Numbered from the stretch's first letter, positions 61,035 to 64,000 are shown. The stretch: DNA of 64,000 nucleotides from Candidatus Rokuibacteriota bacterium (GCA_003220615.1 QHTB01000130.1:1-64000), one strand, 5' to 3'. The notes: generated from the letters alone by a model not told the origin. Numbers and translations are program-made.

Positions 61035-61973
61035 CTACTTTGCGTTGCGGGTAAGCAGGAACTGCGCCTCGTCGAAGGACTCGGCAGCCATCTCGCCGAG
61101 GCCGCTCTTCTGGTAGAGGCTCCCCAGGGCCTGGTGCAGCGCCGGCTCGTCGGGATCGCTGGCCAGCGCGTCCAGCACCACCCGGCGAGCGTCGTTGAGC
61201 AAGCCGTTGCTGGCGAGCATGCCTGCCCGCACCACCGCGACCGAGTTCCGCGACGTGCCGCTGCCGAAGCTCTGGGTGAGCGCGGCCAGATCGTCGGCGA
61301 TCGTGCGGGCCCGCTCGGCATCGAGGATCTCGAACCACGCCTCCTGGTGTGTCTGCTCACCGCTGGTCACCTGGATGGTGTAGCGCGTGCCCGGCGCCAG
61401 CGCCGTCGCGTCCGGCGGATAGTCGAGCCGCCCGCCGGCGACGCCGCGGCGCTCGAAGACAGGCCCCGACGGCCCCACGATGCGCACCGTGTATCGCGCG
61501 AAGCGGCTCCCAGCCCACTCGAGCGCGATTGGCCCCGGGAGCAGGCTCGTGTTGCGCGGCGCGATGACGACCGGCGGCTTGGCCGCGCTGCGGGTGCTCA
61601 GAACGGCGGTCGGCGCCTCGCGTTGACCGGCGGCCATGAAGCCCAGGCCCGCCTGCACGAGCGTGCGCGCCTTCTGCGTGCGCGTGTCGTCGGCTCGCGC
61701 GGCCACCGTGTACGGCGAGTTCGCCGCCTGGACCTTCACCGTGCCCCCACCGCTCAGCATCACGACGGCCACGGCGTCGTCCGTGACGCGCAGGGCATCG
61801 CCGGCCCGCAGCGCCTGGAGCGGCCCGGCCCGACGCCAGTCACTGCCGCTTCGGAGCTCGACGCGGCCGTGGCCGGTCTTGATCTCGGTGATCATGCCGA
61901 CGGTCTCGGTGGACTGCGCCGCCGCGACTCCGGCGGCGAGGACGAGGACCAGCACGGCGACGACACGGGCCAT
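61035..61973 (-). CDS. Secreted FecR-domain protein
   Basis: A 312-residue exported protein: signal peptide ARVVAVLVLVLAAGVAAAQS, then a FecR-like domain (residues about 25-120: GMITEIKTGHGRVELRSGSDWRRAGPLQALRAGDALRVTDDAVAVVMLSGGGTV). Next comes a beta-rich region with fibronectin-like features (IALEWAGSRFARYTVRIVGPSG), and a short TPR-like C-terminus (EPALHQALGSLYQKSGLGEMAAESFDEAQF). Free FecR domains are typical of envelope sensors. It shares a base with the cyclase gene (TGATG), so the two are coupled. Confidence 0.85.
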   Translation of the reverse strand: MARVVAVLVLVLAAGVAAAQSTETVGMITEIKTGHGRVELRSGSDWRRAGPLQALRAGDALRVTDDAVAVVMLSGGGTVKVQAANSPYTVAARADDTRTQKARTLVQAGLGFMAAGQREAPTAVLSTRSAAKPPVVIAPRNTSLLPGPIALEWAGSRFARYTVRIVGPSGPVFERRGVAGGRLDYPPDATALAPGTRYTIQVTSGEQTHQEAWFEILDAERARTIADDLAALTQSFGSGTSRNSVAVVRAGMLASNGLLNDARRVVLDALASDPDEPALHQALGSLYQKSGLGEMAAESFDEAQFLLTRNAK

Positions 61974-63853
61974 CACGAACCTCCTGGCTCTCCGGTGTCC
62001 AGCAACTCGAAGAGCTCGACCGGCTCGGCCTTGCCCTTCACGTTCACGGCGCCCCGCTCGCGGACACGCACGCGGCCCTTCACCGCCGCCAGCGTCGCGC
62101 TCGAGACGAGGATCTCCGTGCCCAGCTCGCGGTTCATCGCCTCGATCCGCGCCACCGTGTTCACGGTGTCGCCGAGCACTGAGTACTTCTTCTTCTTCGG
62201 CGACCCCATGGTACCGGCAAACACCTCGCCGGTGTTGATCGCCACGCCCATGGCCAGCGTGGGCGCGCCCCGTGCCGCCCACACCCGGTTCAGCTCGGCG
62301 AGCGCCCGCTGCATGTCGAGCGCCGTCTCGACCGCGTGCCAGGCGTGCTCCGCGTCGTCCACCGGCGCGCCGTAGACCGCGAGGATTCCGTCGCCGATGA
62401 AGTCGTTGACGAGGCCGTGGTGGCGCATGATCACCTCGACCATCGCCGTGAAGTACTCGTTCATGATCTCGGAGATCCGGGCCGGAGGCAGCCGCTCGGA
62501 GAGCGTGGTGAATCCACGGACGTCCGACATCAGCACCGAGACTGTCCGCACCTCGCCGCCCAGCCGTGTCCCCTCGCGCAAGACGCGCGCGAGGACTTCC
62601 TTGCTCACGTACTGCCCGAACTCGGCGTTGAGCCGACGCCGGGCCAGGGTGCTCGAGCCCTGCCGGTAGAACTTCATCACGGCCAACGGCGCGATGAAGT
62701 CCAGCCAGTAGCCCCGGCTGTACGCCTCGTAGCTCAGCGCCACGAAGACGACGACGAGGCCCAGGCTCAGCACGATGACCCAGACCTGGCGCATCCGCAC
62801 GGAGAGCAGCGAGATCCAGAGGCAGGCGGTCAGGAGCAGCGCCATGTTGAGCGCCCACGGCGGCGGGAGCAGCGCCCGGCGTGAGAGCAGCGTGTGGACG
62901 ATGTTCGCCTGGATCTCCACGCCGCTCATCAGGCCCATCGGCGTGCCGTAGAAATCGCGGCTCTCGCCGAAGGTGGCGCCCACCAGCACGATCTTGCCTC
63001 GGAACGGATTGTCGCCCTCGGGACGCACGCCGCTACGCGCCACCGCCATGAGGGCGCCCGCCGGGAACGCGGCGAAGGCGCCCGGCTGGCCGACGTAGTC
63101 GATCCGCCACACCGTGTCGCGCAGCGATCCGACTGAAATCGCATCGTGCCGGTTGATGCCGCGCTTCGGATCCCCCACGGGCAGCACGACCTCGCGCGAG
63201 GTCCCGCCGGTCAGCGCCGCGGCCAGCGCTTCCGGCGAGTAGCCCTCGTAACCGGCCAGCACGGCGAGAGCGAACGACGGGAGGTACTGGTCGCCGGCCG
63301 CCGGCAACACCGGCCGCGCGACGCGGACCAGGCCGTCGGGGCTGAGCGGGGCGTTGGCGAAGCCGAAGATCGCGCGCAGATCGGGCGAGTACGCCGGCGT
63401 CGGCGCGTAGCGCGCCGGCCGCACGTCCTCGATCGGGTTGGCCACGGTGGTGAACACCAGTCGTCCGCTCCGGCCGTCCCAGCGTCGGGTCACCGCGACG
63501 AGGGCGCCGTCTTCCCGCGGCGTCGTCGCTTTCTTGAGCTGGACGTCGAAGCCGACGACACGCGCGCCGCTCTCGAGCAGGAACTCGGCGAGCTGCGCGA
63601 GATAGGGCCGGGGCAACGGCTGGCGCTCGCCCATCTCCTGGAACGCGGCGTCGTCGATGTTCACCAGGACGATCTCGGGCGTCGGAACGCGATCACGGAA
63701 GAACAGGAAGGCGTCGATGGCTCGCGTCTCCCACCCCGCCAGCCCACCGAAGCGCGACACCACGGTGACCGCGATGCTGACCGCGACACCGAGCAGGAGC
63801 GAACGGGCCAGCGGCGTGTCGACGCGCCGCAGGCCGGCTCGCAGATCTACCAC
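61973..63853 (-). CDS. CHASE2-domain class III adenylate/guanylate cyclase
   Basis: A 626-residue membrane signalling protein: one N-terminal helix, an extracytoplasmic CHASE2 sensor (about 45-320: ILVNIDDAAFQEMG-like VLVNIDDAAF, KIVLVGATFGESRDFYGTPMG), three helices (about 335-395) and a class III cyclase domain (about 435-620). Metal-binding D444 (SDVRGFTTLSERL) and D488 (FIGDGI) and the N565/R569 of GDTVNTVARIEAMN are kept. At the nucleotide-specificity pair Asp484 and Lys556 replace the usual Lys and Asp. The product is thus a cyclic nucleotide of uncertain identity. Confidence 0.93.
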   Translation of the reverse strand: MVDLRAGLRRVDTPLARSLLLGVAVSIAVTVVSRFGGLAGWETRAIDAFLFFRDRVPTPEIVLVNIDDAAFQEMGERQPLPRPYLAQLAEFLLESGARVVGFDVQLKKATTPREDGALVAVTRRWDGRSGRLVFTTVANPIEDVRPARYAPTPAYSPDLRAIFGFANAPLSPDGLVRVARPVLPAAGDQYLPSFALAVLAGYEGYSPEALAAALTGGTSREVVLPVGDPKRGINRHDAISVGSLRDTVWRIDYVGQPGAFAAFPAGALMAVARSGVRPEGDNPFRGKIVLVGATFGESRDFYGTPMGLMSGVEIQANIVHTLLSRRALLPPPWALNMALLLTACLWISLLSVRMRQVWVIVLSLGLVVVFVALSYEAYSRGYWLDFIAPLAVMKFYRQGSSTLARRRLNAEFGQYVSKEVLARVLREGTRLGGEVRTVSVLMSDVRGFTTLSERLPPARISEIMNEYFTAMVEVIMRHHGLVNDFIGDGILAVYGAPVDDAEHAWHAVETALDMQRALAELNRVWAARGAPTLAMGVAINTGEVFAGTMGSPKKKKYSVLGDTVNTVARIEAMNRELGTEILVSSATLAAVKGRVRVRERGAVNVKGKAEPVELFELLDTGEPGGS

Positions 63854-64000
63854 GGAGCGCCGGTCAGGCCGTACCCGGCCCAGGCGAACGGATGCGGGAA
63901 CTGCCGCAGCGTCTCGCGCTGCGCCAGGCTCAGCGCCTCGCCGGGCGCCGTCGTCTTCAGCCGTACGTAGAACTCACGCATGAGTACGAAGCTCGCGCGG
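63847..64000 (-). CDS. CHAT-domain protein, C-terminal end (5' part outside window)
   Basis: The last 50 codons before a TAG at 63849-63847: the minus strand reads ASFVLMREFYVRLKT, then LSLAQRETLRQFPHPFAWAGYGLTGAPW. The closing HPFAWAGYGLTG resembles the HPxxWAxFxLxG end of CHAT peptidase-like domains, often joined to TPR repeats. The cyclase GTG overlaps its stop by 7 bases. The catalytic His-Cys part lies outside the window, so the call is tentative. Confidence 0.65.
   Translation of the reverse strand, partial: RASFVLMREFYVRLKTTAPGEALSLAQRETLRQFPHPFAWAGYGLTGAPW

Follow-up and report, generated by a model that had tools for sequence, protein, structure and literature searches.

Genes and features of the unit

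The window, a stretch of 64,000 nucleotides, is part of contig C148 (70,563 bases) in the genome of a soil bacterium (5.86 Mb in 233 contigs), whose closest named relative in our searches is a Rokubacteria MAG. Three genes on the minus strand, coding for a TPR-CHAT protein, a CHASE2 cyclase and a small exported protein (the third gene), occupy its last part, with the following features.

63847..64000, minus strand: 3' end of the TPR-CHAT gene, which runs on along contig C148 to about 66335 (L006 3348..5836)
63847..63853, minus strand: overlap of 7 bases between the CHAT stop and the cyclase start, the same in the sister genome only
61973..63853, minus strand: gene for a CHASE2-class III nucleotide cyclase, a membrane protein of 626 aa
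61973..61973, minus strand: overlap of 1 base (TGATG) between the cyclase stop and the third-gene start
61035..61973, minus strand: third gene, coding for an MtxA-like protein of 312 aa, predicted to be exported

Our analysis confirmed that CHAT, CHASE2 cyclase and third gene form a real unit. The stop/start overlaps of 7 and 1 bases given in a preliminary description of this DNA are both exact. The CHAT ORF ends with TAG (63849..63847), the cyclase starts with GTG at 63853 and ends with TGA (61975..61973), and the third gene extends from ATG at 61973 to a stop at 61035, all on the minus strand. Only the sister genome has exactly these overlaps; in other genomes the genes remain neighbours but the spacing between them varies, and translational coupling was therefore dropped as a conserved feature. 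The nuoL/M/N genes, judged by reading translations, are found downstream of the unit. On the other side there is an M23 peptidase gene (L006 5906-7291), divergent from CHAT and separated from it by about 70 bases, and also a RraA-like gene. The M23 peptidase/CHAT arrangement was seen at the same place in the sister genome only, and the peptidase was for this reason rejected as a fourth part of the unit. A sigma-70-like promoter or terminator was not found between the M23 gene and CHAT, which says little for this phylum.

Domains of the three proteins

The whole CHAT gene is readable past the window edge; its product has a signal peptide followed by TPRs and a CHAT domain (PF12770; 222.9 bits against the curated Pfam cut-off of 24). 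The TPRs and the His-Cys dyad, which the preliminary description had proposed to look for upstream, are both present: the motifs HFATHA and LSACETG, which hold the His and the Cys, show no variation in the aligned proteins (8/8 and 13/13). Each CHAT relative with a readable start has a signal peptide or a lipobox. Proteolysis by the CHAT protein is plausible. In a whole-chain model the best fold match was DdvA, a membrane anti-sigma factor, followed by separase and Craspase TPR-CHAT, and the active-site loop has a pLDDT below 50, too uncertain for judging dyad geometry. The Craspase protein (Csx29) shares the TPR and CHAT architecture and is a structural match, but it is cytoplasmic and RNA-guided by Cas7-11, neither of which is the case at this locus. 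Membership in a Craspase/type III-E system was rejected, the CHAT protein having a signal peptide and the neighbours examined being the M23 peptidase, RraA-like and nuoL/M/N genes.

The CHAT reading frame is broken once, in a GGGG run near position 65740 of contig C148 (about 5243 in L006). The comparison with the sister genome (G001) gives a dN/dS ratio of 0.25 before the frameshift and 0.17 after it, and values from 0.16 to 0.25 for all parts of the unit; both halves of CHAT show purifying selection. The sister has frameshifts of its own at other places in CHAT, and also in the third gene. Because dN/dS is low on either side of the break and the sister's frameshifts are elsewhere, real pseudogenisation is not favoured; the break more probably reflects a fault in the assembly or a mutation that arose very recently than a gene that died long ago.

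The cyclase has a transmembrane segment (TM) at 13-33, CHASE2 at 28-348, two or more TMs at about 332-379 and the cyclase domain at 436-610; its hydrophobic segments (13-33, 332-353 and 355-379) flank CHASE2 with N-terminal and C-terminal TMs. The CHASE2 domain (PF05226) scored 136.8 bits against the Pfam cut-off of 26.3, and the CHAT and CHASE2 cyclase domains named in the preliminary description were all recovered (E 7.6e-66 for CHAT, 1.3e-39 for CHASE2 and 1.7e-24 for Guanylate_cyc). Of the class III residues (PF00211), the two metal-site Asp (D444 and D488) and the Arg of the Asn/Arg pair (R569) do not vary among 23 relatives; the Asn of the pair (N565) is at least 90% conserved. At the purine-selecting position there is Asp 484, which does not vary in the window family or the distant triads, and not the Lys of the adenylate cyclase subtype. 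The closest natural structural relative is Synechocystis Cya2 (PDB 2w01; catalytic domain E 3.3e-58), a CHASE2-regulated guanylate cyclase which becomes an adenylate cyclase by E488K (PMC5995499). It has the same CHASE2-TM-cyclase layout and an acidic purine-selecting residue, which is Glu in Cya2 and Asp in the window cyclase family. As Asp 484 is invariant where Cya2 has Glu, the product is probably cGMP rather than cAMP, with GTP favoured over ATP. A nearby cyclic-nucleotide receptor, which the preliminary description had proposed to look for, was not found: contig C148 has no cNMP_binding match. The 15 places with cyclic-nucleotide-binding domains in the genome (about 13 frames) are all on other contigs. 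Membership in Pycsar was rejected, as there is no adjacent cyclic-nucleotide-binding effector on contig C148.

The third protein was first described as a secreted FecR-domain protein. Its secretion is predicted from a signal peptide, which is followed by a FecR-like beta domain (24-92), an Ig/Fn3-like domain (134-216) and TPR helices (219-308), but the family assignment did not hold. None of 27 homologues matched Pfam FecR (E 0.01), and neither did the protein itself; when PF04773 was searched for in the genomes of 40 relatives, the third gene's place was not reported. The first domain can be aligned to the N-terminal region of true FecR proteins from this phylum (hhalign 96%) and gives E values of about 1e-4 to 1e-11 in the comparison with FecR by our own HMM. 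The label was rejected for the whole protein after these tests and kept for the first domain only. Genuine FecR (PF04773) genes do occur close to other CHASE2 genes in this phylum, with 19 pairs within 5 kb, often in divergent orientation (G004:C2, G005:C295, G014:C133 and others).

The predicted structure of the third protein (mean pLDDT 79) combines a beta domain with an Ig/Fn3-like sandwich and with TPR helices, and its sole clear Foldseek match is a crystal structure, that of MtxA of Magnetospirillum (PDB 4z29; E 1.3e-8, TM 0.69 on target). By predicted fold the protein is thus MtxA-like, with exported beta, Ig-like and TPR parts. Profile and phmmer searches listed no sequence-level match to 4z29, and for this reason it is called MtxA-like and not MtxA. 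A search for MtxA-like proteins in a Rhodospirillales-labelled relative returned hits that were mostly cross-matches of TPRs. MtxA is itself exported, and its gene adjoins a CHASE2 adenylate/guanylate cyclase gene; the protein has a similar length (about 313 aa), the same domain order and a CHASE2 cyclase neighbour, but mtxA precedes the cyclase gene and the paper mentions no CHAT or caspase gene (PMC4439547). A second link, weaker than that to MtxA, is with DUF928 (PF06051), which matches three of the 27 homologues (best E 1.3e-4), not the window protein itself, and reaches 87% in a profile-profile comparison with the family.

Recurrence in relatives and other phyla

In 60 relatives the third gene was found at 29 places, and at 25 of them it lies just 3' of a CHASE2 gene in the same orientation. 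The adjacency of CHAT and CHASE2 in these genomes is beyond chance, with 12 pairs within 1.5 kb, some of them non-independent since several genomes belong to one genus, against 0.07 pairs expected if genes were placed at random in genomes averaging 4 Mb. In all 12 pairs both genes are on the same strand with CHAT upstream. The relatives are mostly MAGs with short contigs, so that some neighbours are hidden. The CHAT-CHASE2 loci are as follows.

With a third gene of the window type: G000, G001, G024, G027, G053 and G054, with G021 at a contig end
Second lineage, with distantly related CHAT and CHASE2-cyclase: G003, G012, G013, G018 and G031

In the second lineage the next gene encodes DUF928 in four of five loci; the contig of G013 ends before a third gene could appear. 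Three further genomes (G016, G017 and G033) have an exported Peptidase_C14 upstream of the cyclase, in the CHAT slot, with its GHG and D[AST]CYSG motifs intact, and in three further loci C14 is found downstream instead. One of these genomes carries three tandem exported Peptidase_C14 with Ig-like domains directly 5' of the CHASE2-cyclase/MtxA-like pair (L047 4311-11928, G017:C162). A caspase-fold gene is present within about 5 kb at 14 of the 29 third-gene loci. At about 15 of the 29, partly through contig ends, there is no CHAT or C14 nearby, and the caspase-fold part is therefore not obligatory. Two unusual arrangements were also seen. In G007 (L042, G007:C135, 1504-2380) a CHAT tail only, fused to an unrelated open frame, lies beside an intact CHASE2-cyclase/MtxA-like pair, and in L038 (G034:C252, 6054-9496) a different TPR-CHAT gene is followed directly by an MtxA-like gene, the cyclase in the middle being absent.

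We scanned 84,980 species with the CHAT alignment and obtained 79 loci. The full order CHAT, CHASE2-cyclase, third gene was found in Rokubacteria (L123, L127 and L128), NC10 (L142) and MAGs labelled 'Deltaproteobacteria' (L136, L137 and L138), and CHAT followed by CHASE2-cyclase in a Rhodocyclaceae MAG (L201). The adjacency, whose conservation had been left to be checked in the preliminary description, is thus kept in related genomes, other phyla included. Most other CHAT relatives in the scan have no CHASE2 nearby, and the CHASE2 association therefore marks a subset of them. CHASE2, DUF928 and CHAT cluster on annotated plasmids of Nostoc, Gloeothece and Calothrix. Plasmid 2 of Gemmatirosa kalamazoonensis (L117 8929-11700) has CHASE2, cyclase and DUF928 in one frame, with three TPR-CHAT genes flanking it on both sides; an added hydrophobic segment before DUF928 in this fusion would place DUF928 on the CHASE2 side. 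Cyanobacteria and Gemmatimonadota show the same parts (CHAT, CHASE2 and DUF928). CHAT-CHASE2 fusions, with CHAT first in the chain and a DUF928-matching gene next, were observed on plasmids of Nostoc and Brasilonema (L116, L118 and L120).

The pairing of CHASE2 with FecR or MtxA is already known, and CHASE2 beside DUF928 was noted in one paper. In S. meliloti, cyaD1/SMc02177/SMc02178/clr has a CHASE2 adenylate cyclase by a FecR-domain gene, an exported protein and a cyclic-nucleotide output, but the FecR is a true PF04773, a cAMP receptor gene is adjacent and no CHAT or caspase gene is mentioned (PMC5498481). The BiofilmReg operon of Burkholderia/PA4035 combines an exported FecR protein with a CHASE2 sensor, but has a histidine kinase and response regulator as output, LysM in its FecR protein and no caspase-fold partner (PMC5192318). 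A metacaspase-CHASE2 fusion is known in one cyanobacterium, Trichodesmium, where a caspase-fold domain is joined to CHASE2 in a single protein with no cyclase and with the metacaspase predicted to be cytoplasmic, while here the caspase-fold protein is separate and exported (PMC3501461, PMC2853523). In the open-licence literature we found no description of a CHAT association with CHASE2, or of CHASE2, FecR and CHAT together.

A candidate envelope sensor operon

What is observed of the unit is the order of its genes, the domains, export signals, intact dyads and metal residues of its proteins, and its recurrence; our statements on function draw on sequence, predicted structure and gene neighbourhood. 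We propose, with a probability of about 0.5, that it is an envelope sensor operon whose CHASE2 cyclase is under the control of two exported proteins, one of caspase fold and one an MtxA-like partner. The physical partnership, the direction of signalling, proteolysis, the product and the receptor are what we infer in this scheme. Its strongest mechanistic clue is the predicted topology, which would put CHAT or C14, CHASE2 and the MtxA-like or DUF928 proteins outside the inner membrane and the catalytic domain alone inside. Export would bring the TPR-CHAT and MtxA-like proteins into the periplasm, the compartment of the CHASE2 domain, and the MtxA-like protein would pair there with CHASE2. TPR-CHAT, or a metacaspase in some genomes, may recognise a cue from the envelope or from outside the cell and would act on the CHASE2/MtxA-like pair through cleavage or docking. 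CHASE2 would then switch the cytoplasmic cyclase, with cGMP as the likely product, to be read by at least one cyclic-nucleotide-binding protein encoded elsewhere in the genome.

The preliminary description read the set as a peptidase plus cyclic-nucleotide pathway responding to an envelope signal. The TPRs, the dyad and the adjacency across phyla agree with this reading, while the FecR family and a receptor on the contig do not. Such a pathway, suggested by sequence features, is strengthened by the C14 metacaspases in the CHAT slot elsewhere. That two caspase-fold families, both with intact dyads, occupy one slot speaks for a role of catalysis but falls short of proof. In a more specific form, exported CHAT or C14 would be interchangeable proteases that cleave the MtxA/DUF928-type partner or CHASE2 and so gate a guanylate cyclase, a protease-to-second-messenger relay against which the odds are clear. 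Several points count against the operon model as a whole. The caspase-fold part is not obligatory, most CHAT relatives are without CHASE2, deletion of mtxA in Magnetospirillum gave no phenotype, and the FecR gene beside the CHASE2 cyclase of S. meliloti is not needed for signal perception (PMC5498481).

The main alternative is that CHAT is an adaptor and not a protease, its TPRs binding a ligand or partner and its fold coupling this to CHASE2 in a plain ligand-gated cyclase. TPR-CHAT proteins are able to regulate a partner by binding, as in the Craspase literature, the whole-chain model places the anti-sigma factor DdvA ahead of the caspase-like matches, and CHAT is missing at some loci and reduced to its tail in G007. 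However, His and Cys are invariant even in strongly diverged CHAT copies and the C14 replacements retain their own dyad, which a pure adaptor would not need, and we regard this explanation as possible but somewhat unlikely. Adjacency without partnership, with the CHASE2 cyclase and third gene cooperating and CHAT a frequent neighbour acting elsewhere in the periplasm, would fit the far greater constancy of that pair and the broken CHAT gene of this assembly. It is improbable in view of the two separate CHAT lineages and the C14 family that fill the same upstream slot, and of the grouping of CHAT and DUF928 with CHASE2 in cyanobacteria and Gemmatirosa too. Least probable is a defence or conflict operon of the Pycsar or Craspase kind, with the cyclase signalling infection and the caspase-like part killing: bacterial conflict systems often carry caspase-like proteins, the cyclase domain matches PADLOC PycC models (1e-19) and CHAT weakly matches Csx29, but the PycC matches are limited to the shared catalytic domain, the cyclase carries a periplasmic sensor, CHAT and the third protein match no PADLOC model, contig C148 has no effector with a cyclic-nucleotide-binding domain, and the caspase-like protein is predicted to be exported, the wrong side for a killer controlled by cyclic nucleotides.

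The recurrent set, in which metacaspases may replace CHAT, provides candidate partners for CHASE2, MtxA, DUF928 and exported TPR-CHAT proteins, and makes it testable whether bacterial caspase homologues take part in ordinary envelope signalling. The sensor operon, if true, would suggest, short of proof, that bacteria can turn a protease-type event outside the inner membrane into an intracellular signal. Should the relay by cleavage also be true, it would represent a conserved use of caspase homologues across phyla in envelope sensing, and not in cell death or CRISPR immunity, and it would explain the purpose of the MtxA and DUF928 proteins.
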